In this document: positions 1 to 11,777 of the stretch, piece after piece | Layout: each line of letters begins with the position of its first letter | Position numbering within the stretch: position 1 is the stretch's first letter | DNA from: Candidatus Gallimonas intestinigallinarum | GTDB lineage: Bacteria; Bacillota_A; Clostridia; Christensenellales; Borkfalkiaceae | Assembly (NCBI GenBank): GCA_019116405.1 | Contig: DXBS01000136.1 | Span: 1-27,357 of the forward strand | DNA: 27,357 nucleotides | Direction: 5' to 3' | Notes under the pieces: generated by a model | Told to the model about the DNA's origin: nothing | Database searches by the model: none | The model's input: the letters and a program-made list of their open reading frames with translations, nothing else | Position numbers and translations under genes: made by a program

Positions 1-905
1 CCAAGAAGGAAGGGGCGGATGCCATCTGCCACGGCTGCACGGGCAAGGGTAACGATCAGGTGCGGTTTGAACTCACCATCAAGGCGTTTGCGCCCGAGAT
101 GACCATCATCGCGCCCTGGAGGATCTGGAACATCAAGAGCCGCGAAGAGGAGATCGAATACGCGGAGGCGCACAACATTCCTCTCAAGATCAACCGCGAG
201 ACCAACTATTCTAAGGATAAGAACCTGTGGCACCTCTCGCATGAGGGCCTCGATCTGGAGGATCCTGCCAACGAGCCGCAGTATGAAAAAGAGGGATTCC
301 TGGAAATGGGCGTATCTCCTCTGCAGGCGCCCGATAAGCCCACCTATGTGAGTATCCGCTTTGAAAAGGGTGTTCCCACCGCGATCGACGGCAAGGAGAT
401 GGGCGCGGTCGAGATCGTCGAGACGCTCAACAAGATCGGCGGCGAGAACGGCGTCGGACTTGCAGACCTCGTCGAAAACCGCCTCGTCGGCATGAAGTCG
501 CGCGGCGTGTACGAGACGCCCGGCGGCACCATCCTCTATGAGGCGCACAGGCTGCTGGAGACCATCACGCTGGACAAGGCGACCATGCACTACAAGCAGA
601 TGATCGCGATCAAATTCGGCGAAATGGTGTACGACGGGCAGTGGTTCACGCCCCTGCGCGAGGCGCTCTCCGCGTTTGTGACCAAGACGCAGGAGACGGT
701 CACTGGCGACGTCAAACTGCGCATCTACAAGGGCAACGTCACGAGCGCAGGCATCACCTCTCCCAACTCCCTCTACAGCGAGGACATCGCGACTTTCTCG
801 GACGACGGCGGCGCGTACTCGCAGAAGGACGCGGAGGGCTTCATCAACCTGTTCGGTCTGCCCCTCAAGGTCAAGGCGATGCTGGACGCGAAGAAGCTCA
901 AGTAA
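1..905 (+). CDS. argG: Argininosuccinate synthase, C-terminal ~300 residues (5' end outside window)
   Basis: ATP-dependent ligation of citrulline and aspartate to argininosuccinate, the penultimate step of arginine synthesis, in the cytoplasm. The frame is open from base 3 and carries the family signature [15 protein letters not shown] at about residues 9-23 of the visible part, followed by the typical synthetase and C-terminal multimerisation region. The family is about 400 residues long, so roughly a quarter of the protein lies upstream of the window. A GTG at position 60 falls inside the conserved motif and is not a start. The stop is TAA at 903-905, and argC begins two bases later, so the two genes are almost certainly co-transcribed. 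Family assignment is secure; the start and promoter are not visible. Confidence 0.97.
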
Positions 906-907
906 AC

Positions 908-1831
908 ATGATCAAAGTATTTATCGACGGAAGTGCGGGGACCACCGGTCTCCGCATTCGTGAAATGCTGGGAAAACGGGAGGACATCTCCCTCATCGCG
1001 CTGCCCGAGCAGCTTCGCAAGGACGTCGCGGCGCGCAGGGACGCGATCAACGGAGCAGACGCCGTCTTTTTGTGCCTGCCCGACGACGCGGCGCGCGAGG
1101 CGGTCGGGTTGGTCGAAAACAAAAATACGGTCGTCATCGATGCTTCGACGGCGCATCGCACGTCGCCCGGCTGGGCGTACGGCTTCCCTGAACTCTCGGC
1201 AAGCCACCGCGCGGCAATCGTAAACGGCAAGCGCATCGCCAATCCCGGCTGTTATGCCTCGGGCTTTCTCGCGCTCGTCTATCCGCTCGTCGCGGCGGGC
1301 GTTCTTCCGAAGGACTATCCGCTCGTCTGTCATGCCGTCAGCGGCTATTCCGGGGCGGGCAAGAAGGGGATCGCGGAGTACGAGGCGGAAAACCGTCCCG
1401 AAAGTTACGATACGCCCCGCCTGTACGCGCTCACGCTTTCGCACAAGCACCTGCCCGAGATGCAGGCGGTGTGCGGCCTGACGCGGACGCCCGTCTTCAA
1501 TCCCTATGTGTGCGACTACTACTGCGGTATGACGGTCAACGTCCCGCTCTTTTCAGACCTGCTCGCCGGGAAGGTGAGCGTCTCGGACGTCAAAGAACTT
1601 CTTCGTGCGCACTATGCGGGCGCGCACTTCGTGACGGTGGGCGAGGAGCCGAGCGGGTACATCTCGGCCAACACTTTAAGCGGTACCAACCGCATGGAAC
1701 TGCTCGTCAACGGCAACGAAGATCGCATCCTTCTGACGGCGCGCTTTGATAATTTGGGAAAAGGCGCCTCGGGCGCTGCGATTCAGAACATGAATCTTGC
1801 GCTTGGGCTTGACGAATGTCTTTCTTTGTGA
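908..1831 (+). CDS. argC: N-acetyl-gamma-glutamyl-phosphate reductase, type 2 (short form)
   Basis: NADPH-dependent reduction of N-acetylglutamyl phosphate to the semialdehyde, third step of arginine/ornithine synthesis. The 307-residue protein starts MIKVFIDGSAGTTGL, giving the Rossmann NADP loop. The catalytic cysteine is Cys115 in NPGCYASG, and the C-terminal segment includes NLGKGASGAA. The length and the GSAGTTGL loop match the shorter 'type 2' ArgC family (about 310 residues) rather than the commoner ~345-residue type 1; this is recall of the families, not an alignment. The ATG at 908 was chosen because it directly opens the Rossmann fold. The same frame is open well upstream inside argG, but that part is a shadow reading. 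The 3' end contains the promoter-like sequence described at 1809-1837. Confidence 0.95.
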   Translation: MIKVFIDGSAGTTGLRIREMLGKREDISLIALPEQLRKDVAARRDAINGADAVFLCLPDDAAREAVGLVENKNTVVIDASTAHRTSPGWAYGFPELSASHRAAIVNGKRIANPGCYASGFLALVYPLVAAGVLPKDYPLVCHAVSGYSGAGKKGIAEYEAENRPESYDTPRLYALTLSHKHLPEMQAVCGLTRTPVFNPYVCDYYCGMTVNVPLFSDLLAGKVSVSDVKELLRAHYAGAHFVTVGEEPSGYISANTLSGTNRMELLVNGNEDRILLTARFDNLGKGASGAAIQNMNLALGLDECLSL

Positions 1832-1837
1832 TATAAT
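1809..1837 (+). promoter_or_regulatory. Sigma-A-type promoter inside the end of argC, ahead of argJ
   Basis: TTGACG at 1809-1814, a 17-base spacer, then a perfect TATAAT at 1832-1837. This is 5/6 and 6/6 match to consensus at optimal spacing. A start site about seven bases downstream would fall near 1843-1845, only some 12 bases before the argJ ATG and within the purine-rich AAGGA (1841-1845) that would serve as ribosome binding site. Activity is inferred from sequence only. Confidence 0.6.
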
Positions 1838-1856
1838 CGTAAGGATAGTGAGATTT

Positions 1857-3071
1857 ATGGTACAGCAGATTTCGGGCGGCGTATGCGCGCCCAAGGGATT
1901 CCGCGCCAATGGTGTGCACTGCGGGATCCGCAAAAACAAAGGAAAGAAGGATTTGGCGCTCATCGTTTCGGACGTGCGTTGCGCGGCGGCGTGCGTGTAC
2001 ACGACCAACCTCGTCAAGGGCGCGCCCATCCTCGTGACGCAGAAGAACGTCGCGGACGGCTATGCGCAGGCGGTCATCGTCAACAGCGGTAACGCCAATA
2101 CCTGCAACGCAAACGGCGTGGAGATCGCCGAGGCAATGTGCGCGCTCGTCAAACAGCACACGGGTATTTCCGCGGGCGACGTCATCGTGGCGAGCACGGG
2201 TGTCATCGGTCAGACGCTCTCCATCGATCCGATTGCGGGCGGCATGGAGGGGCTCACAAAGGGGCTTGGCGACAACAGCGGCGCGGCAGCAGAGGCGATT
2301 ATGACGACGGACACCGTCAGAAAGGAGATCGCGTTCTCCTTTGAACTGGGCGGCGTGACGTGCAGGATGGGCGCGATCTGCAAGGGTGTCGGCATGATCT
2401 GCCCTAACATGGCGACCATGCTCATGTTCATCACGACGGACGCGGCGATCAGTCCCGCCATGCTGCAAAAGGCGATCTCGGCGGACGTAAAGGATTCGCT
2501 CAATATGCTCTCCGTCGACCGCGACACCTCCACCAACGATACGCTCGCCATTCTTGCGAGCGGGCTGGCGGGAAATGCTGCGATCACCGAGGAGAACGAG
2601 GACTATAACATCTTCTGCGAGGTGCTGCACGCCGTGACGACGGCAATGTGCAGGAAGCTCGCCGCCGACGGCGAGGGTGCGACAAAGCTCATCGAGTGCC
2701 GCGTCAGAGGTGCAAAGACCAAGCAGGACGCAAGACTGGCTGCCAAGTCGGTCATCAACTCCAACCTCGTCAAGGCGGCCATGTTCGGCGCGGACGCCAA
2801 CTGGGGCAGAGTGCTGTGTGCGCTCGGCTACGCGGGCGCCGATCTCGATGTGGACAAGATCGAAGTCGCGTTCACGTCCGCCGCGGGCAGCATCCTCGTC
2901 TGTGAAAACGGAAGGGGCGTGCCCTTTTCCGAGGAGGAGGCGAAAAAGGTGCTCTCGGAAAAGGAGATCGTCATCGCGGTGGACTGCAAGGACGGCGATT
3001 TCGACGCGACGGCATGGGGCTGCGACCTCACCTATGACTATGTGAAGATCAACGGAGATTACAGAACGTGA
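1857..3071 (+). CDS. argJ: Glutamate N-acetyltransferase / amino-acid acetyltransferase (ArgJ)
   Basis: Transfers the acetyl group from N-acetylornithine to glutamate, recycling it in the linear-cyclic arginine pathway. Bifunctional members also acetylate glutamate from acetyl-CoA. The 404-residue protein starts MVQQISGGVCAPKGF. It carries the self-cleavage signature GMICPNMATMLMF, in which Thr187 would become the N-terminal nucleophile of the beta chain after cleavage at Ala-Thr. The usual length is about 400. The ATG at 1857 is preferred over a TTG at 1797 because the homologous N-terminus begins here. The stop TGA overlaps the GTG start of argB. No separate acetylglutamate synthase (argA) is visible in the window, which fits a bifunctional ArgJ, but this is inference. 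Confidence 0.96.
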   Translation: MVQQISGGVCAPKGFRANGVHCGIRKNKGKKDLALIVSDVRCAAACVYTTNLVKGAPILVTQKNVADGYAQAVIVNSGNANTCNANGVEIAEAMCALVKQHTGISAGDVIVASTGVIGQTLSIDPIAGGMEGLTKGLGDNSGAAAEAIMTTDTVRKEIAFSFELGGVTCRMGAICKGVGMICPNMATMLMFITTDAAISPAMLQKAISADVKDSLNMLSVDRDTSTNDTLAILASGLAGNAAITEENEDYNIFCEVLHAVTTAMCRKLAADGEGATKLIECRVRGAKTKQDARLAAKSVINSNLVKAAMFGADANWGRVLCALGYAGADLDVDKIEVAFTSAAGSILVCENGRGVPFSEEEAKKVLSEKEIVIAVDCKDGDFDATAWGCDLTYDYVKINGDYRT

Positions 3072-3925
3072 CGCAAAAGGAAGCACAGGCAGAGATCCTT
3101 CTCGAGGCGATGCCCTATATCGAGAAGTATCAGAATAAGATCCTCGTCGTCAAATACGGCGGCAACGCCATGACGGATGAGACACTCAAACAGTTGGTCA
3201 TGCGCGACATGACCCTTTTGCAGTTCGTCGGCATCAAAGTCGTTCTGGTACACGGCGGCGGACCGGAGATCTCCCAGACCTTGAAGCGCATGGGCATCGA
3301 GTCCCGCTTTGTCGGCGGACTCCGGTATACCGATGAAGAGACGGCGGAAGTCGTGCGCATGGTGCTCGCGGGTAAGGTGAACAAGGGGCTTGTGCACATG
3401 CTCGGCGCGCTGGGCGCGCGGGCGATCGGGCTTTCGGGCATCGACGGCAGGATGCTCCTTTGCAGCAAGGAGAGCGAGGAGCTCGGCTTTGTCGGCAAGA
3501 TCGATCAGGTGGATACCCACGTCATCACCAGCTGTCTGGATGCGGGCTATCTCCCCGTCATTTCCTCCGTCGGGTTTGACGATGCAGGCAATATCTACAA
3601 CGTCAACGCCGATACGGCGGCATCTGCCATTGCAGGCGCACTGAAGGCGGAGAGCCTCATCCTCATGACGGACGTGCGCGGGCTTCTGCGCCGGAAGGAC
3701 GATGAATCGAGCCTCATCAAAAAGGTGTACGTCTCGGACATTCCCTCTCTGGAGAAGGAGGGCGTCATCTCGGGCGGCATGATTCCCAAGATCCATTGCT
3801 GCCGCGACGCCATCCGCAACGGCGTGCACCGCGTATTCATCACGGACGGCAGAGTCAAACATTCCATATTGCTCGAGCTCCTCTCCAACGAGGGGCAGGG
3901 TACGATGTTCGTAAAAGGTGACTGA
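3068..3925 (+). CDS. argB: Acetylglutamate kinase
   Basis: Phosphorylates N-acetylglutamate at its gamma carboxyl, the second step of arginine synthesis and usually the arginine feedback-controlled one. The 285-residue protein has the amino-acid kinase fold, with KYGGNAM at about residues 29-35 and the glycine-rich VHGGGPEI. The C-terminal part holds NVNADTAA, LMTDVRGL and the GGMIPK loop. The start is GTG in a GTGA overlap with the argJ stop, arguing for translational coupling. A short inverted repeat (ATCGCA 3925-3930 with TGCGAT 3942-3947) lies in the 37-base gap before argD. It has no T-tract and so is not an obvious terminator. Confidence 0.97.
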   Translation: MTQKEAQAEILLEAMPYIEKYQNKILVVKYGGNAMTDETLKQLVMRDMTLLQFVGIKVVLVHGGGPEISQTLKRMGIESRFVGGLRYTDEETAEVVRMVLAGKVNKGLVHMLGALGARAIGLSGIDGRMLLCSKESEELGFVGKIDQVDTHVITSCLDAGYLPVISSVGFDDAGNIYNVNADTAASAIAGALKAESLILMTDVRGLLRRKDDESSLIKKVYVSDIPSLEKEGVISGGMIPKIHCCRDAIRNGVHRVFITDGRVKHSILLELLSNEGQGTMFVKGD

Positions 3926-3962
3926 TCGCAGTCGCCTCTTTTGCGATATATAAGGAGAGATC

Positions 3963-5126
3963 ATGGATTTTAATGAGATAAAGACGCTTGACGGGGAGTA
4001 CCTCGCCAAGACATACGCACGCTATCCCGTCGCGCTCGTCGGCGGCAAGAACGCAACGCTCACGGACAGCAACGGGAAGCAGTATATCGACTTCGGCTCT
4101 GGCATTGCGGTCAATATCTTCGGCGCAAACGACGAGGAATGGAAGCAGGCAGTCATCGAGCAGCTTGGCAAGATCCAACACGTCAGCAACTATTACTACG
4201 CAGAGCCGCAGTCCCGCCTCGCGCAGATGCTGTGCGAACGGACGGGCGCAAAGCGGGTATTCTTCTCCAATTCGGGCGCGGAGGCGAACGAATGCGCCCT
4301 GAAGGCGGCGCGCAAGTACTCCTTCATGAAGTACGGCGCGGGGAGAAGCAAGATCGTCTCCTTAAAGGGGAGCTTCCACGGCAGGACGCTCTTCACGCTC
4401 ACCGCGACGGGGCAGGATGAATTCCACAAGTACTTCGATCCCTTTGTCCCCGGCGTTTCTTATGCTTCGCCCGATATGGCGGAGATCAGGAAAGTTGCGG
4501 ACACGGACGCCTGCGCCGTGATCATCGAGTGCGTGCAGGGCGAGAGCGGCGTCAACGCGCTGCCCAAGGCGTTTGTTTCGGCGCTGGGTGACTGGTGTAA
4601 ACAGAGCGACGTCCTGCTCATCTGCGACGAAGTGCAGAGCGGCAACGGCAGATGCGGTACGCTGTACGCCTATGAGCAGTACGGCATCACGCCCGATATC
4701 GTCACGACGGCGAAGGGGCTCGCGGGCGGGCTTCCCATCGGCGCATGCCTCTTCTTTGAAAAGACGGAAAACGCGCTCGGCGCGGGCGATCACGGCTCGA
4801 CGTTCGGCGGAAATCCCGTCTCGTGCGCCGCGGCGTGCAACGTCATCGGGCGGCTCACCAAGGAATTCCTGCTCGAAGTACAGGGCAAGGCAGCCTATAT
4901 GCGCGCCAAACTCAAGGATTTTGACGGCGTGAAGGAAGTGACCGGCCTGGGGCTGATGATCGGTCTGACGGTCGCAAAGCCCGCCAAAGAGGTGGCTGCA
5001 AAGTGCCTGGAAAAGGGACTTCTCGTCCTCACCGCACACGAGCGGGTGCGTCTCGTTCCGCCGCTCACTATTACAAAAACGGAGATGGATGAGGGATTGT
5101 CCATCCTCAAAGGGGTGCTTCAATGA
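3963..5126 (+). CDS. argD: Acetylornithine aminotransferase
   Basis: PLP-dependent conversion of N-acetylglutamate semialdehyde and glutamate to N-acetylornithine. The 387-residue class III aminotransferase shows FFSNSGAEANECALK (phosphate-binding), the segment SFHGRT, the cofactor Asp in LLICDEVQSG, and the PLP lysine at Lys251 in TTAKGLAGG. It ends with the usual small C-terminal domain. A good ribosome binding site (AAGGAG at about 3953-3958) precedes the ATG, the best Shine-Dalgarno in the arginine cluster. The last codons overlap the start of argF (ATGA). Closely related enzymes act on succinyl-diaminopimelate or ornithine, but its position between argB and argF settles the call. Confidence 0.96.
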   Translation: MDFNEIKTLDGEYLAKTYARYPVALVGGKNATLTDSNGKQYIDFGSGIAVNIFGANDEEWKQAVIEQLGKIQHVSNYYYAEPQSRLAQMLCERTGAKRVFFSNSGAEANECALKAARKYSFMKYGAGRSKIVSLKGSFHGRTLFTLTATGQDEFHKYFDPFVPGVSYASPDMAEIRKVADTDACAVIIECVQGESGVNALPKAFVSALGDWCKQSDVLLICDEVQSGNGRCGTLYAYEQYGITPDIVTTAKGLAGGLPIGACLFFEKTENALGAGDHGSTFGGNPVSCAAACNVIGRLTKEFLLEVQGKAAYMRAKLKDFDGVKEVTGLGLMIGLTVAKPAKEVAAKCLEKGLLVLTAHERVRLVPPLTITKTEMDEGLSILKGVLQ

Positions 5127-6025
5127 AACATTTACTCAAACTTGCGGACCTTTCGCGGGAGGAGATCCTCTCCGTCCTCAACCTCGCCGACCAGCTCAAG
5201 TACGAGCGCAAGCACGGCATCTACAAAGACTACTTAAAGGGCAAAAAACTGGGCATGATCTTCCAGAAGTCCTCCACGCGCACCCGCGTCTCCTTTGAAG
5301 TGGGCATGTACGAGCTGGGCGGCAACGCGCTGTTTCTCTCCAACCGCGACCTGCAGATCGGGCGCGGCGAGCCCGTGCAGGACACGGCGCGCGTTCTGTC
5401 GCGCTATCTCGACTGCATCATGATCCGCACCTTTGCCCAGCAGGAGGTGGAGGACCTTGCAAAATACGGCTCCATTCCCGTCATTAACGGACTGACCGAC
5501 TACTGTCATCCCTGCCAGGTGCTCGCCGACCTCATGACCATCCGCGAGAAAAAGGGCTCGTTCAAGGGGCTGAAGATGTGCTTTATCGGCGACGGCAACA
5601 ATATGGCGAACTCCTTGATGGTGGGTGCCATCAAGACGGGCATGTCCTTTTCCATCGCCTGCCCCGAAGGGTATGAGCCGGACGCGCAGCTCATCACGTG
5701 GGCAAAGGAGAACGGCTCGTTCACGATGACGACGGACGTCCTGAAGGCGGCAGAGGGCGCGGACGTCGTCTATACCGATGTCTGGGCCTCCATGGGGCAG
5801 GAAGAGGAGAAGGCAAAGCGCGAGAAGGCGTTTGCTGGCTATCAGGTCAACGAAGCGGTGATGGCGGCGGCGCATCCCGACGCGATGGTGCTGCATTGTC
5901 TGCCTGCACACCGCGGCGAGGAGATCACGGCGGAGGTCTTTGAGGCACATGCGGATGAGATCTTTGAAGAAGCGGAAAACAGACTGCACGCGCAGAAGGC
6001 AGTGCTGTGTAAAGTCATGCAATAA
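5123..6025 (+). CDS. argF: Ornithine carbamoyltransferase
   Basis: Condenses ornithine with carbamoyl phosphate to give citrulline. The 300-residue protein carries the carbamoyl phosphate motif S-T-R-T-R at residues 51-55, HPCQ in the hinge, and the ornithine-binding HCLPAHRGEE near the C-terminus. These features separate it from aspartate carbamoyltransferase. The length is normal for the family. The ATG overlaps the argD stop (ATGA). It stands directly upstream of carA and carB, which supply its carbamoyl phosphate substrate, so substrate maker and user are co-expressed. Placement in a biosynthetic cluster argues for the anabolic enzyme rather than a catabolic arcB. Confidence 0.97.
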   Translation: MKHLLKLADLSREEILSVLNLADQLKYERKHGIYKDYLKGKKLGMIFQKSSTRTRVSFEVGMYELGGNALFLSNRDLQIGRGEPVQDTARVLSRYLDCIMIRTFAQQEVEDLAKYGSIPVINGLTDYCHPCQVLADLMTIREKKGSFKGLKMCFIGDGNNMANSLMVGAIKTGMSFSIACPEGYEPDAQLITWAKENGSFTMTTDVLKAAEGADVVYTDVWASMGQEEEKAKREKAFAGYQVNEAVMAAAHPDAMVLHCLPAHRGEEITAEVFEAHADEIFEEAENRLHAQKAVLCKVMQ

Positions 6026-6041
6026 AGCGGAAGGAGAACAT

Positions 6042-7121
6042 ATGAATAAGAAAGTCTATCTCACGCTGGAAAACGGCAAGGTGTTTGAAGGGTATTCCTT
6101 CGGCGCAGACAGGGAGGTCGTGGGCGAGCTCGTCTTTACCACCGGTATGACGGGCTATATCGAGACGCTTACAGACCCGAGTTATTACGGGCAGATCGTC
6201 ACGCAGACCTTTCCTCTCATCGGCAACTACGGCGTCATTCCCGCCGATATGGAGAGCAGGAAATGCTGGCTTACGGCATATGTCGTGCGTGAGAAATGTG
6301 ATACGCCATCGAACTTTCGCTGTGAACTGACGCTTGAACAGTTCTTAAAGGAGCAGAATATTCCCGCCCTGTACGGTGTTGATACCCGGGAATTGACGCG
6401 AATCGTGCGCGAAGCGGGTGTCATGAATGCAGCCATTACCTATAAACCGCTCGCCGATCTTGCGGAATTGAAAAAGTATCGTGTCCGCGATGCCGTGAAA
6501 TCCGTTTCCTCGCATGAGGTTCGTGAACGGGGCGAAGAAAAAGACCTCAGGGTTGTCGTATATGATTTCGGTGCGAAGGGTAATATCGTGCGTGAACTCG
6601 TCAAGCGCGGATGCCATGTCATCGAGGTGCCTGCGGAGACGACGGCAGAGCAGGCGCTTTCCTATGCTCCGGACGGCATTATGCTTACAAACGGGCCGGG
6701 CGACCCTGCCGAAAATGTGGAGATCGTCGAGAATGTCAGAAAGTTTATCGGTAAAAAGCCCATTTTCGGCATCTGCCTCGGACACCAGCTTTTCGCGCTC
6801 GCGATGGGCGGACAGACGCGCAAGATGAAGTACGGCCACCGTGGCGCCAACCAACCGGTCAAGGATCTCTCGACAGGGAAAGTGTTTATCACCTCGCAAA
6901 ACCACGGATACGAGGTCGTAAGCGAGTCTGTTAAAAACGGTACGCTCAGTTTTATCAACGCCAACGACGGTACTTGCGAGGGCGTGGACTATCCTGCCGT
7001 CAATGCGACGACGGTGCAGTTTCATCCTGAAGCCTGCGGCGGTCCGCATGACGCCAATTACCTGTTCGATCGCTTTATTGCCAACATGAGAAAGGAGAAA
7101 GGATATGCCGAAGAGAAGTGA
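6042..7121 (+). CDS. carA: Carbamoyl phosphate synthase, small (glutaminase) subunit
   Basis: Hydrolyses glutamine and passes ammonia through a tunnel to the large subunit. The 359-residue protein has the N-terminal CPSase_sm domain (MNKKVYLTLENGKVFEGYSFG and onward). A C-terminal class I glutamine amidotransferase domain follows, with nucleophile Cys245 in FGICLGHQL and the His328/Glu330 pair in VQFHPEA. The tail reads CGGPHD where many homologues have SPGPHD. The ATG at 6042 has AAGGAG a few bases upstream; a longer open frame back to 5940 is only argF in another frame. Its 3' end overlaps the start of the large-subunit gene by 17 bases. The middle of this gene is somewhat richer in A+T than its neighbours. 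Confidence 0.97.
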   Translation: MNKKVYLTLENGKVFEGYSFGADREVVGELVFTTGMTGYIETLTDPSYYGQIVTQTFPLIGNYGVIPADMESRKCWLTAYVVREKCDTPSNFRCELTLEQFLKEQNIPALYGVDTRELTRIVREAGVMNAAITYKPLADLAELKKYRVRDAVKSVSSHEVRERGEEKDLRVVVYDFGAKGNIVRELVKRGCHVIEVPAETTAEQALSYAPDGIMLTNGPGDPAENVEIVENVRKFIGKKPIFGICLGHQLFALAMGGQTRKMKYGHRGANQPVKDLSTGKVFITSQNHGYEVVSESVKNGTLSFINANDGTCEGVDYPAVNATTVQFHPEACGGPHDANYLFDRFIANMRKEKGYAEEK

Positions 7122-10100
7122 TATCAAAAAGGTGCTCGTCATCGGATCGGGACCCATCGTCATCGGTCAGGCGGCGGAGTTTGACTATGCAGGCGCGCAG
7201 GCTTGCCGCGTTTTAAAGGACGCAGGCGTCAACGTCGTCCTGTGCAACTCCAACCCCGCGACCATTATGACGGACAAGATGCTCGCCGACGAGATCTATC
7301 TGGAGCCGCTGACGCTTGATTCCCTCAAGCGTATTATTATCAAGGAACGCCCCGACTCCCTGCTTGCATCTCTTGGCGGACAGACGGGACTTACCATGGG
7401 TTGCAAGCTCGCCAAGGAGGGCTTCTTGGACGAGTGGGGCGTCAAACTCATCGGCACCAAGCTGGATGCCATCGACAGGGCGGAGGATCGCGAACTCTTC
7501 AAGGAGACGATGCAGAAGATCGGGCAGCCCGTCGTGCCTTCGGATATCGCCTACACGGTGGACGAGTGCGTCGCGATCGCCGAAAAGTTGGGCTATCCCG
7601 TCATCGTGCGCCCCGCATTCACGCTGGGCGGCGCGGGCGGCGGCGTCGCGTACGATGAGGAGGAATTGCGCCTCATCTCGCACAACGGGCTCATGCTCTC
7701 GCCCATCACGCAGGTGCTCATTGAAAAGTACATCGGCGGCTGGAAGGAGATCGAGTTCGAGGTACTGCGCGACAGCGCCGGCAACGTCATCACCGTCTGC
7801 TCGATGGAGAACTTCGACCCCGTCGGTATCCACACGGGCGACTCCATCGTCATCGCGCCCGCCGTCACGCTCTCCGATAAGGAATATCAGATGCTGCGCA
7901 CGGCGTCGCTTGATATCATCACCGAACTCGGCATCGAGGGCGGCTGCAACTGCCAGTTTGCGCTGCATCCCGACAGCTTTGAATACGCGGTCATCGAAGT
8001 CAATCCCCGTGTGTCGCGTTCCTCGGCACTTGCAAGTAAGGCGACAGGATATCCCATCGCAAAAGTGGCAACCAAGATTGCGCTCGGCTACACACTGGAC
8101 GAGATCAGAAACGACGTTACGGGCAAAACGTATGCATGTTTTGAGCCTGCGATCGATTACGTTGTCGTGAAGCTTCCCAAATGGCCCTTCGATAAGTTTT
8201 TGTATGCGGGAAGAACGCTCGGTTCGCGTATGAAGGCGACGGGTGAGGTCATGGCGATCGGAACCTCCTTCGAGCAGGCGATCATGAAGGCGGTGCGCGG
8301 CGCGGAGATCTCTCTCGATACGTTAAACCATCCCAAGTTTGAGCCGATGAGCATCGAACAGCTCCGCGAAGAACTGCATAAAATGACAGACGAGCGCTTA
8401 TTCGCCGTCTATCAGGCGCTCAAAAAGGGTATCTCCATCGATGAGATCTATGCGACCACCAAGATCGACGAATGGTTCCTTGCAAAGCTCAAAAACCTCG
8501 CAGACTATGAGGCAGAGATCACGGGCAAAAAGCTGACGCGCGCGCAGTATCTGGAGGGCAAGCGCATCGGCTATACGGACAAGGCGCTGGAGCGCTTCTC
8601 GGGCGAGAAGCTGCCCGCGCACCGCCGCGCCGTGTTTAAGATGGTCGATACCTGCGCCGCGGAGTTCTCGGCAAAGACGCCTTACTTTTATTCGACCTAC
8701 GACGAGCTCGATCACGACGAGGCGCTGCCCTTCGTCCAAAACAGCACCAAAAAGCGCGTCATCGTCATCGGATCGGGACCTATCCGCATCGGACAGGGCA
8801 TTGAGTTCGATTATTCCTCCGTCCACTGCGTCTGGACGCTCAAGGAACTGGGCTACGAAGTCATCATCATCAACAATAACCCCGAGACGGTCTCTACCGA
8901 CTTTGATACGGCGGACAGACTGTACTTTGAATCTCTGACCCCTGAGGATGTTCAGAATGTCATCGATGTGGAGAAGCCGTATGGCGTCGTCATCACCTTC
9001 GGCGGACAGACGGCGATCAAACTGTGCGGATATCTCGCAAAGAAGGGAGTGCGCATCCTCGGCACGAGCGCGGACTCCGTCGACATGGCGGAGGATCGTG
9101 AGCGCTTTGACGAGCTTCTGGAGCACTTCCACATCGCTCGTCCCAAGGGACTGACGGTCATGACCAAGGAAGAGGCGATCCATGCTGCAGAGACGCTGGG
9201 CTATCCCGTCCTGCTGCGCCCGTCCTATGTCATCGGCGGGCAGAACATGACGATCGCCTTCACCGAGAACGATATTTCGCGGTACATGGACGTCATCCTC
9301 GCCCAGCACATTGAAAATCCCGTGCTGTGCGATAAGTACCTCATGGGCAGCGAGCTGGAAGTGGACGCGATCTCGGACGGCGTGGACGTCCTCATCCCCG
9401 GCATCATGCAGCACATTGAGCGCGCGGGCGTGCACTCGGGCGACTCCATCGCCGTGTATCCGCCCTATCATCTGAGCGACGCGATGCTGGAGAAGATCGT
9501 GGATATCTCCACCAAACTTGCGCTCTCCTTAAAGACCAAGGGGCTCATCAATATCCAGTACCTCATCTATCAGAACCAGCTGTACGTCATCGAGGTCAAT
9601 CCGCGTGCTTCGCGCACCATTCCCTATATTTCCAAGGTGACGGGGGTGCCCATGGTTGAGCTTGCGACCAAGATCATGGTGGGCGCGAAGCTGAAAAAGC
9701 TCGGTTACGGCACGGGGCTGTATCCCAATTCGCCCTATGTCGCGGTCAAGGTTCCCGTATTCAGCTTTGAAAAGCTCAACGACGTCAACAGCCAGTTGGG
9801 TCCCGAGATGAAGTCGACGGGCGAGGTTCTGGGCATCGGCAAGACCATCGAGGAGGCGCTCTTCAAGGGACTCGTCTCCGCGGGCTTCAAGATGTGCCAT
9901 CCCACCGCGCAGAAGCCCGTCGGCGTGTACTTCACCGTCAACGATCAGGACAAGTTCGAGATCGTCTCCATCGCAAAGAAGTTCGCCGACCTCGGCTGTA
10001 ACCTCTATGCGACGGCGGGCACGGCAAAGGTCATCTCCGACCTGGGCATCGACGTCACCATCGTCGACCGGCTCAAGGCGACCAAGCAGGTCTCCAAGCT

Positions 10101-11163
10101 CATGGACGACGGCAAGATCGACTATATCATCTACACGGGCAAGACGGACGTCGACTCCATCAACGACTATATCGAACTGCATCATCACGCCATCCTTCTG
10201 GGCATCACGGTGCTTACTTCCCTGGATACGGCAAATGCGCTGTGCGATATCATCGCAAGCAAGTTCACCGAATACAACACCGAACTTGTGGATATCAACA
10301 ACCTGCGCACCAAAAAGACGGAGATCTCCTTCGTCAAGATGCAGTCCTGCGGCAACGACTATATCTACTTTGAGGATCTGGACGGCAAGATCACCTGTCC
10401 CGAATCATTGGCGGTCAACTTTGTCGACAGGCACTACGGCATCGGCGGCGACGGCATCGTGCTCATCGAGCGCTCTGATGTTGCAGACGCCAAGATGCGC
10501 ATCTTCAATCAGGACGGCAGCGAGGGGCAGATGGCGGGCAACTCCATCCGCTGCGTTGCCAAGTACCTCTATGAAAAGGGCATCGTCAAAAAAGAGACGA
10601 TGACCATCGAGACGCTGAGCGGCGTCCGCGAGGTCAAGGTGTACTCCTTCGGCGGTATCGTGACGTCGGCGAGCGCGGACCTCGGGAAAGCGGTGCTGGA
10701 CGGCGAGAAGATCCCCTCCGTCTGGAAAGGGGAGAAGATCGTCGGTCAGCCCATGGAGATCGACGGCGTGACCTATCATGTGACGCTCGTCAACATGGGC
10801 AACCCGCACTGCATCATCTTCTGCGACAAGGTGGACGACGTCCCCGTGGAGACGCTCGGACCCAAGATCGAGCACAGCGAGTACTTCCCCGCCAAGACCA
10901 ACGTGGAGTTTATCCGCGTCGTCAACGAGAGCACGATCAAGATGCGCGTCTGGGAGCGCGGCAACGGCGAGACCTGGGCGTGCGGCACGGGTGCAGCGGC
11001 GGCGGCAGTCGCGTGCGTCCTGAACGGACTTTGTAAGATGGATACCGATATCACCGTCAAGGTCAAGGGCGGCGATCTTGTGGCGCACTATCGCTCGGAG
11101 GACGGCCACGTCATCCTGACGGGTAACGTGGAAAAAGTCTACGATGGGACGGTGGAGTTCTGA
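7105..11163 (+). CDS. carB-dapF: Fused carbamoyl phosphate synthase large subunit - diaminopimelate epimerase
   Basis: A single uninterrupted 1352-codon frame. Residues 1-1072 are a complete CarB: first ATP-grasp half (SGPIVIGQAAEFDYAG near the start), second half from about residue 550 (SGPIRIGQGIEFDYSS), and the MGS-like allosteric domain from about 938. Residues 1073-1352 are a complete DapF, which interconverts LL- and meso-diaminopimelate for lysine and peptidoglycan. DapF begins EISFVKMQSCGNDY. Its two catalytic cysteines are Cys1150 (GNSIRCVA) and Cys1293 (ACGTGAA). These are DapF-local positions 78 and 221, close to 73 and 217 of well-studied enzymes. The junction has essentially no linker. 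The ATG at 7105 follows AAAGGAGAAAGG. Both enzymes appear intact; whether the chain stays whole in the cell is unknown. Confidence 0.95.
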   Translation: MPKRSDIKKVLVIGSGPIVIGQAAEFDYAGAQACRVLKDAGVNVVLCNSNPATIMTDKMLADEIYLEPLTLDSLKRIIIKERPDSLLASLGGQTGLTMGCKLAKEGFLDEWGVKLIGTKLDAIDRAEDRELFKETMQKIGQPVVPSDIAYTVDECVAIAEKLGYPVIVRPAFTLGGAGGGVAYDEEELRLISHNGLMLSPITQVLIEKYIGGWKEIEFEVLRDSAGNVITVCSMENFDPVGIHTGDSIVIAPAVTLSDKEYQMLRTASLDIITELGIEGGCNCQFALHPDSFEYAVIEVNPRVSRSSALASKATGYPIAKVATKIALGYTLDEIRNDVTGKTYACFEPAIDYVVVKLPKWPFDKFLYAGRTLGSRMKATGEVMAIGTSFEQAIMKAVRGAEISLDTLNHPKFEPMSIEQLREELHKMTDERLFAVYQALKKGISIDEIYATTKIDEWFLAKLKNLADYEAEITGKKLTRAQYLEGKRIGYTDKALERFSGEKLPAHRRAVFKMVDTCAAEFSAKTPYFYSTYDELDHDEALPFVQNSTKKRVIVIGSGPIRIGQGIEFDYSSVHCVWTLKELGYEVIIINNNPETVSTDFDTADRLYFESLTPEDVQNVIDVEKPYGVVITFGGQTAIKLCGYLAKKGVRILGTSADSVDMAEDRERFDELLEHFHIARPKGLTVMTKEEAIHAAETLGYPVLLRPSYVIGGQNMTIAFTENDISRYMDVILAQHIENPVLCDKYLMGSELEVDAISDGVDVLIPGIMQHIERAGVHSGDSIAVYPPYHLSDAMLEKIVDISTKLALSLKTKGLINIQYLIYQNQLYVIEVNPRASRTIPYISKVTGVPMVELATKIMVGAKLKKLGYGTGLYPNSPYVAVKVPVFSFEKLNDVNSQLGPEMKSTGEVLGIGKTIEEALFKGLVSAGFKMCHPTAQKPVGVYFTVNDQDKFEIVSIAKKFADLGCNLYATAGTAKVISDLGIDVTIVDRLKATKQVSKLMDDGKIDYIIYTGKTDVDSINDYIELHHHAILLGITVLTSLDTANALCDIIASKFTEYNTELVDINNLRTKKTEISFVKMQSCGNDYIYFEDLDGKITCPESLAVNFVDRHYGIGGDGIVLIERSDVADAKMRIFNQDGSEGQMAGNSIRCVAKYLYEKGIVKKETMTIETLSGVREVKVYSFGGIVTSASADLGKAVLDGEKIPSVWKGEKIVGQPMEIDGVTYHVTLVNMGNPHCIIFCDKVDDVPVETLGPKIEHSEYFPAKTNVEFIRVVNESTIKMRVWERGNGETWACGTGAAAAAVACVLNGLCKMDTDITVKVKGGDLVAHYRSEDGHVILTGNVEKVYDGTVEF

Positions 11164-11777
11164 TGGCGCGCACGACGTTTTACGAGGAGAGCGCGATCTC
11201 CGTCAACGCCCGCGCGGAGGAGCGCGTGGCGCGGGCATTCAACATTGTCGGCATCATCTGCCTTGTCATGGCGGGCATCATTATCCTGATGTCACTGACG
11301 ATCGTCCCCACCTGGATCGGGACGTACGTGGAGGGCGAGGTCACGCTGGCGTGGCTGATCGCACAGCTCGTGATCTGGGCGATGCCGATCGTGGCGCTGA
11401 TCGGAATATTCTTTCTCTTTTGGTTTTTCAAGCGCAAGAAGAACGTTAGCTTCGACTATACCTTTGTCGAGGACGAAGTGCGCATCACCAAGGTGTTCAA
11501 CGGCAAGTCGCGCAAGCATCAGTGCACCCTGAATGCGGAGCAGATGCTCAAGATCGGCTATGCGGACAAGGATTCCTTCCAGCGTACGTTGGAGGGGGTC
11601 CGCAACAAAAAGGCGGTCTATTTCACGCCCAACAAGGAGCCGGCAGAGGGGAAGATGTTCATCTATATCCTCTATTCCACCTCGATCGAAAAGACGCTCT
11701 ACGTCCTCGAATGCCGCCAGCAGCTATTGGAGTTTATTGTCATGGCGGCAGGTATCAACAAGTTTGAAAGAAGATGA
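11163..11777 (+). CDS. Small membrane protein, two helices plus cytoplasmic domain, unknown function
   Basis: A 204-residue protein that I do not recognise with certainty. After about 24 polar residues come two hydrophobic helices (about 25-47 and 62-90), a basic KRKKN stretch consistent with the positive-inside rule, and a soluble C-terminal half. That half is rich in beta-type segments (SFDYTFVEDEVRITKVF, AVYFTPN), reminiscent of the PH-like domain of YcxB-type or DUF6106-type small membrane proteins of Clostridia; this likeness is from memory and weak. The start overlaps the carB-dapF stop (TGATG) and its stop overlaps the next start (ATGA), so it is firmly inside the operon and very likely translated. 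No catalytic motif is visible. Confidence 0.8.
   Translation: MARTTFYEESAISVNARAEERVARAFNIVGIICLVMAGIIILMSLTIVPTWIGTYVEGEVTLAWLIAQLVIWAMPIVALIGIFFLFWFFKRKKNVSFDYTFVEDEVRITKVFNGKSRKHQCTLNAEQMLKIGYADKDSFQRTLEGVRNKKAVYFTPNKEPAEGKMFIYILYSTSIEKTLYVLECRQQLLEFIVMAAGINKFERR

Follow-up and report, generated by a model that had tools for sequence, protein, structure and literature searches.

Overall Architecture of the CarB–DapF Fusion

The window analyzed here, a stretch of 27,357 nucleotides from the uncultured gut bacterium Candidatus Gallimonas intestinigallinarum (GenBank assembly GCA_019116405.1, contig DXBS01000136.1), carries a gene in which carB, for the large subunit of carbamoyl phosphate synthase, is joined to dapF, for diaminopimelate epimerase (Table 1). 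CarB stands at the start of both arginine and pyrimidine synthesis, and DapF is an enzyme of cell-wall and lysine precursor supply. The frame has zero internal stops across 1352 codons, and its product consists of a CarB part, a short connector, and a DapF domain. As described below, the DapF domain lacks its first catalytic cysteine, and it is likely to be a maintained non-catalytic module, i.e., a pseudo-epimerase, on the only CarB of the cell.

Table 1. Features of the carB–dapF locus and its surroundings in the window.
Feature	Position	Strand	Description
argC, argJ, argB, argD, argF (arginine gene cluster)	641..6025	+	Upstream of the fusion, same strand
carA	5940..7121	+	Mechanical open reading frame, overlapping the start of carB; real start probably near 6060
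carB–dapF fusion gene	7105..11163	+	1352 amino acids, one open frame
CarB part, residues 1–1053	7105..10263	+	Full length; profile match and motif match to E. coli CarB
MGS-like (allosteric) domain, residues 952–1038	9958..10218	+	Domain match
Connector, residues 1049–1072	10249..10320	+	Conserved NTELVDIN; predicted structure and motif alignment
DapF domain, residues 1074–1350	10324..11154	+	Profile match, predicted structure, Foldseek
Ala1144	10534..10536	+	Position of the first catalytic Cys (C73 in H. influenzae DapF, C83 in C. glutamicum DapF)
Cys1150	10552..10554	+	IRC-motif Cys, lying six residues past the catalytic position
Cys1293	10981..10983	+	Second catalytic cysteine
204-residue open reading frame	11163..11777		Overlaps the end of carB–dapF; matches neither Pfam nor NCBIfam families at E 0.001

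The CarB part scores 1450 bits against PRK05294 (cut-off 599) and 1406 bits against TIGR01369 (cut-off 1027), covering model positions 1–1050 of 1052. E-x-N-P-R motifs matter in the ATP-grasp halves of CarB; VIEVNPRVSR and VIEVNPRASRT of the window align to those of both halves of E. coli CarB. With the MGS-like domain also in place, the original prediction, made from the letters of the window alone, was right in reading one 1352-residue frame with all the expected CarB parts. The DapF domain scores 268 bits against TIGR00652 (cut-off 114.65). An internal start yielding free DapF was considered and rejected: the in-frame starts within positions 10151–10360 are GTG 10210, GTG 10288, and ATG 10339, none with a clear ribosome site by eye, and the ATG falls within the DapF domain.

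In place of the window's own genome, which was outside the set, 32 related genomes were taken to represent its lineage. A second full carB, for which the original prediction had suggested a search, was seen in none of them: in 32/32, no complete CarB besides the fused one was seen, although its copy is split over contigs in one (G031) and has internal stops in another (G029). The fused CarB of the window lineage therefore probably serves both arginine and pyrimidine synthesis.

Catalytic Cysteines and Substrate Pocket

Alignment to solved DapF structures places Ala1144 at the catalytic cysteine of the CGN motif. Cysteine occurs at this position in none of the 81 fused domains of the clade, i.e., those of 80 related loci and the window (Ala 59, Gly 17, Ser 3, Thr 2); it occurs in 26/26 standalone DapF from related genomes. 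The second catalytic cysteine is retained in 81/81. The original prediction had named Cys1150 and Cys1293 as the catalytic pair, and only the latter assignment stands. Cys1150 is conserved, and its equivalent is also a cysteine in 26/26 standalone DapF, beside their true catalytic cysteine.

C. glutamicum DapF is left with almost no activity by C83A or by C221A, and changes at eight substrate-contact residues have a similar effect (PMC5296763). HisR of F. nucleatum, a relative, likewise needs two cysteines, according to the part of the report consulted (PMC11602996). Because the first cysteine is lost and the published mutants are nearly inactive, the fused DapF of the window would be unable to use the two-cysteine mechanism, and it is very likely not a normal diaminopimelate epimerase.

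The substrate pocket is preserved in the window. All eight contacts (N1084, N1135, N1146, N1233, N1266, E1284, R1285, and T1295), which were mapped from C. glutamicum N15, N74, N85, N159, N194, E212, R213, and T223 by shared motifs rather than by direct alignment to that chain, are kept, and each is retained in at least 79 of the 81 fused domains. The pocket is more conserved than its surroundings: all eight contact positions are at least 97% conserved, compared with 91 of the 271 other columns (Fisher p = 2 × 10−4). Two further cysteines, Cys1082 (10348–10350; 80/81) and Cys1098 (10396–10398; 81/81), are found in the fused domains of the clade and are not typical of its standalone DapF.

Reality, Spread, and Origin of the Fusion

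A frameshift or missing-stop artefact, a possibility for which the original prediction had allowed, is ruled out, since CarB (whole or cut by a contig end) and DapF share one frame in 78 of the 80 related loci. At L033 and L058, the remaining two, the contig breaks off before reaching CarB. Among the 78, two frames (L068 and L077) start within the CarB match, and the genome of L077 has stops inside CarB. In the family sample (151 genomes), listed full-length CarB, a count that excludes incomplete frames, is fused in 65 genomes, unfused in 44, one of which (G097) is a contig break, and of both kinds in two. Fused genes among the matches listed for the order sample (297 genomes) reach down to about 44% DapF identity, and the class sample (391 genomes) has a fused frame in at least 56, counted by eye.

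In a tree of the CarB part, fused proteins lie on one side and 32 of the 34 unfused CarB on the other; the tool flagged long branches, and the support value of this split was not seen. Of the two exceptions, L289 was tried as a case of DapF-domain loss and rejected, as it ends at a contig end and not at a stop. The other, L257 (G199), is an unfused second CarB with a real stop, placed among the fused CarB on a long branch; it possibly lost its DapF domain. L289 is also the sole close relative among the 34 unfused CarB, and separate carB and dapF genes with an identical junction, another possibility raised originally, were not found in this set. Likewise, no confirmed loss of the DapF domain was found in the window's own CarB group among the 34, a set that does not include G047, a possible second unfused close relative. 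The simplest reading is that the fusion arose once in this CarB lineage.

Six loci (L239, L259, L265, L266, L267, and L268) have dapF immediately behind an unfused carB, and there the FxK motif of the DapF start begins 12–19 bases past the carB stop. L239 and L266 share the same CarB tail, so that the six are not all independent. Of 14 stretches picked from the class sample for such adjacent pairs, only L239 (G483) had carB in the stretch, and the further pairs came from a later CarB set. This adjacency is likely the precursor arrangement of the fusion, which would be old in Clostridia and would have arisen probably by loss of the stop between the neighboring genes.

Two of these loci, L259 (G440) and L267 (G326), belong to genomes with a damaged fused CarB–DapF that also bear an unfused carB and dapF directly downstream, with FxK 14–15 bases past the stop; carA is also present in L259. 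Elsewhere (G123:C10, L122), a second fused copy, partial and interrupted by a stop in the DapF match, accompanies a full fused copy in the assembly, which may reflect a mix of strains.

Intact and Damaged Fused DapF and Other Sources of meso-Diaminopimelate

The state of the fused domain was compared with gene content in 138 hand-picked genomes with one fused gene each, which are not a random sample: the 80 loci contributed 32 (with preference for long contigs), the family sample 19 (most of them divergent), the order sample 47, taken from its long-frame rows, and the class sample 40 of its 52 new genomes. Both catalytic cysteines are present in 45 fused domains, and 93 are damaged. The first and second positions of the latter are Ala-Cys in 52, Gly-Cys in 22, Ser-Cys in eight, Ser-Ser in five, Cys-Ser in three, and other pairs in three, the second cysteine being missing in 11. 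In the classification of DapF domains, one domain of unclear kind was dropped, L033 and L058 were classed as standalone though they are contig-cut fused frames, and L186 duplicates the gene of L152 (G413).

Standalone DapF was seen in only one of the 45 genomes with an intact fusion, compared with 70 of the 93 with a damaged one. The intact fused DapF is therefore probably the working DapF of its cell. A second route is provided by meso-diaminopimelate dehydrogenase (Ddh), which makes meso-diaminopimelate (meso-DAP) without DapF. The Ddh test covered 92 of the 138 genomes, with matches below the cut-off (e.g., G354, G611, G473, and G445) scored as absent. It is found above the cut-off in 18 of the 23 damaged-fusion genomes without a full standalone DapF, in 10 of 24 tested damaged-fusion genomes with one, and in 24 of the 45 intact-fusion genomes; the other 21 show no other tested route to meso-DAP. 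Thus, standalone DapF separates the intact from the damaged group well, and Ddh covers most damaged genomes lacking it. The 40 class genomes, which were added after the first 98, repeat the pattern: among intact fusions, 22 genomes are without and one with standalone DapF, and among damaged fusions, nine are with and eight without. Collectively, the fused DapF probably decays mainly where meso-DAP has another source.

In the clade of the window, the second dapF looked for on the original suggestion was found in most genomes: a standalone, two-cysteine DapF occurs in 26 of the 32 related genomes, including the two nearest (G001 and G002), and the remaining six have Ddh. The idea that the fused chain supplies the epimerase is thus not supported for the window lineage, where the first cysteine is lost, and the bifunctional enzyme first imagined fits other lineages instead, where both cysteines are kept and the fused domain is usually the only DapF seen.

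The association is strong when kinship is ignored (Fisher p = 1.1 × 10−12 for fused state against standalone DapF in the first 98 genomes less G173). For the likelihood test, G173, in which only DapF fragments accompany the fused gene, was scored as lacking standalone DapF. The CarB tree of all 138 implies nine or more changes of state, four of them forced by supported branches. A likelihood test of correlated evolution on this tree, run with a custom script, gave a likelihood ratio of 28.8 (p = 8 × 10−6), and in its model the change from intact to damaged is fast only with standalone DapF present, with no reverse change. Taken as a whole, the tests support a causal link, on a modest number of events.

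Several observations weigh against this interpretation and the role proposed below. In the independent-pairs test on supported branches, there were four pairs, on average 3.0 in the predicted direction and zero against, which is not significant (median p = 0.25). Five of the 93 damaged genomes show neither standalone DapF nor Ddh (G120, G341, G537, G567, and G780), and one intact-fusion genome, G486, has a standalone DapF. The presence of Ddh alone does not predict decay, as it is common in intact genomes too, and absences of genes were scored in hand-picked assemblies without completeness figures. The first seven of the eight pocket contacts are kept in 45/45 intact and 67/93 damaged domains; 26 damaged domains have lost at least one, so that retention of the pocket is not universal. 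Finally, pocket conservation may stem from fold stability.

Gene surroundings were also compared. With window proteins as queries, no arginine genes were found around 13 intact fused genes, 12 of which are informative, as L247 had less than 1 kb upstream. Neighbors were identified in five of these loci: PurF (L244, L246, and L248), CTP synthase with a below-cut-off glutamine synthetase homolog (L241), and the glutamate synthase small subunit GltD (L253). Four damaged genes from beyond the window clade were examined as well: L254 and L255 lie in an arginine cluster, and L256 and L260 do not, the last being beside PurF. An arginine-repressible location would be awkward for a cell's only DapF.

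Selection, Connector, and Predicted Structure

The median pairwise dN/dS (nonsynonymous to synonymous substitution rates; dS 0.1–1.5) of the fused DapF is 0.181 (81 sequences, 1863 pairs), compared with 0.252 for standalone DapF (26 sequences, 157 pairs) and 0.071 for the C-terminal part of CarB (68 sequences, 1366 pairs). These values and the pocket show that, in the window lineage, a catalytically damaged DapF domain is kept under purifying selection with its substrate pocket intact.

The original prediction saw almost no linker at the junction, which is imprecise: the connector measures about 20 residues and is nearly fixed in length. A pattern search found its NTELVDIN-type motif in 118 of the 138 fused proteins, and the distance from this motif to the GND motif of DapF is identical in 116 of the 117 measured. 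An AlphaFold2 model of residues 930–1352 has a mean predicted local distance difference test score of 86.5 and a predicted template modeling score of 0.67. The DapF domain is modeled with high confidence, and the connector is the weakest part, with confidence below 50 at residues 1056–1059; given this and the template modeling score, the relative placement of DapF and the CarB end is not fixed by the model. Foldseek, by which alone structures were compared, gave 2OTN as the best match of the predicted DapF domain (TM-score by target 0.85), and the closest solved structures are DapF enzymes.

Possible Roles of the Fused DapF Domain

Since the first cysteine has been lost, yet the domain is under purifying selection with an intact pocket, the fused DapF most likely serves the cell's only CarB in a non-catalytic way. 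In many lineages, the DapF half with both cysteines is the only DapF seen and would act as the functional epimerase within a bifunctional enzyme. In the window lineage, meso-DAP would come from a separate DapF or, in some relatives, possibly from Ddh, and the fused domain has lost its first cysteine.

Ligand sensing in particular is a tentative proposal. The DapF domain, adjoining the MGS-like domain, may close on diaminopimelate or a similar diamino acid and thereby tune or stabilize carbamoyl phosphate synthesis, and from its place at the MGS end of CarB it would be well suited to relay ligand binding to the allosteric part. When substrate binds, C. glutamicum DapF undergoes a large movement from an open to a closed form, as reported in the portion of PMC5296763 consulted, and an E. 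coli DapF whose two cysteines were replaced by Ala retains the ability to bind and stimulate RppH, as stated in the consulted portion of PMC4227774. Conceivably, then, the dead domain is a sensor of diaminopimelate (or of lysine- or ornithine-like amino acids) that sets carbamoyl phosphate synthesis allosterically, the switch from enzyme to sensor having occurred several times, once another source of meso-DAP freed the domain. If so, the supply of the cell-wall and lysine precursor would control entry to both arginine and pyrimidines. A regulatory tie at the allosteric end of CarB, as first suggested, is thus possible as a non-catalytic link and not as one based on epimerase activity.

About as plausible, and equally tentative, is a purely structural role, in which the domain has no ligand and the folding, stability, or oligomer assembly of CarB came to depend on it. 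Purifying selection and the conserved connector are consistent with this, as is the tree, in which the window's CarB group shows no confirmed case of domain loss, 32 of 34 unfused CarB lie outside the fused clade, and one of the other two is a contig break. However, a mere scaffold would not need pocket residues that are more conserved than the rest, and L257, on its long branch, may belong to the fused clade despite being unfused.

A changed catalysis appears unlikely. A one-cysteine domain could run another reaction, such as a one-base exchange or an elimination, given that Cys1293 and the pocket are retained, and Cys1082, nearly universal in the clade, might act as the base. As a substitute base, however, Cys1082 was rejected, because it is not linked to loss of the first cysteine (Cys in 24/45 intact and 57/93 damaged domains); elsewhere, 11 of the 93 damaged domains lack the second cysteine. 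Pairing of the dead domain with standalone DapF, to regulate it or recruit it to CarB, is very unlikely: DapF is a dimer in published work (consulted portion of PMC4227774) and a standalone partner exists in 70 damaged cases, but the domain is also kept in the 18 genomes where Ddh is present and a full standalone DapF is not seen. The least probable is an active epimerase merely co-expressed with CarB, for although the TIGR00652 score is above the cut-off, the second cysteine and all eight pocket residues are retained, and elsewhere no DapF besides the two-cysteine fused domain is seen in 44 of 45 genomes, the first cysteine is missing throughout the clade, the equivalent change nearly inactivates C. 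glutamicum DapF (PMC5296763), and all 32 related genomes have a standalone two-cysteine DapF or Ddh.

Comparison with Known Proteins

The fused domain resembles DapF enzymes (TIGR00652; PDB 2OTN and 5M47) in fold, length, second catalytic cysteine, and the eight substrate contacts, but differs in Ala at the first catalytic cysteine and in being joined to CarB. Similarly, the CarB part resembles CarB (TIGR01369; E. coli, PDB 1BXR) in its full length, both ATP-grasp halves, and the oligomerization and MGS domains, whereas the window adds a C-terminal DapF domain past the conserved connector. The bifunctional DapF/glutamate racemase (NF038284) is also a DapF fusion, but with another partner, and the window reaches only 121 bits against its cut-off of 350. 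The catalytically dead E. coli DapF on RppH, as described in the portion of PMC4227774 consulted, shares non-catalytic regulation by a DapF fold, which is proposed here; there, the proteins are separate and the mutant engineered, whereas here the domain is natural and fused. Intact CarB–DapF fusions of other Clostridia (e.g., L241 and L253) have the same architecture and connector, yet they keep both cysteines, have no standalone DapF seen in 44 of 45 genomes, and had no arginine cluster found in the 12 informative surroundings. The window lineage is unlike them in these respects, with Ala1144 in the window and standalone DapF in the nearest genomes, G001 and G002.

Among the matches listed in open-licence PubMed Central literature, no title or abstract describes a CarB–DapF fusion or a DapF pseudoenzyme, and the portion of PMC9026213 consulted does not mention either. 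In a protein database, all rows among the best 120 relatives of each of two queries carry the Pfam domain of DapF; the rows that name a source, including an entry from Ruminococcaceae bacterium YRB3002, are titled carbamoyl-phosphate synthase large subunit. The architecture is real and unusual, as originally supposed; the sequences are already public, while the decay pattern and the pseudo-epimerase appear undescribed in the literature searched. Fusions and pseudoenzymes are known as kinds, and as far as searched, this CarB–DapF pair and its repeated decay are seemingly new.

The fusion offers a natural series from intact to damaged forms, in which catalytic loss tracks gene content elsewhere in the genome, standalone DapF above all, and the question of why a dead domain is kept becomes directly testable. 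For pathway reconstruction, methods based on product names may miss DapF where the fused domain is the sole one, because named entries mention carbamoyl-phosphate synthase large subunit alone, and methods based on domains may credit DapF where the fused domain is dead.

Local Gene Context

Upstream of the fusion gene, the 3′ part of argG lies on the same strand as the argC–argF cluster and carA, and argF and argD occur on the same stretch as the fused gene in 31 of 40 long related loci. On its 3′ side, the 204-residue open reading frame is followed by a gene for a NifS-like protein, which scores below the NifS cut-off, and then by thiI. By tblastn, this open reading frame is present in 31 of the 40 long related loci, with the NifS-like and ThiI genes next.

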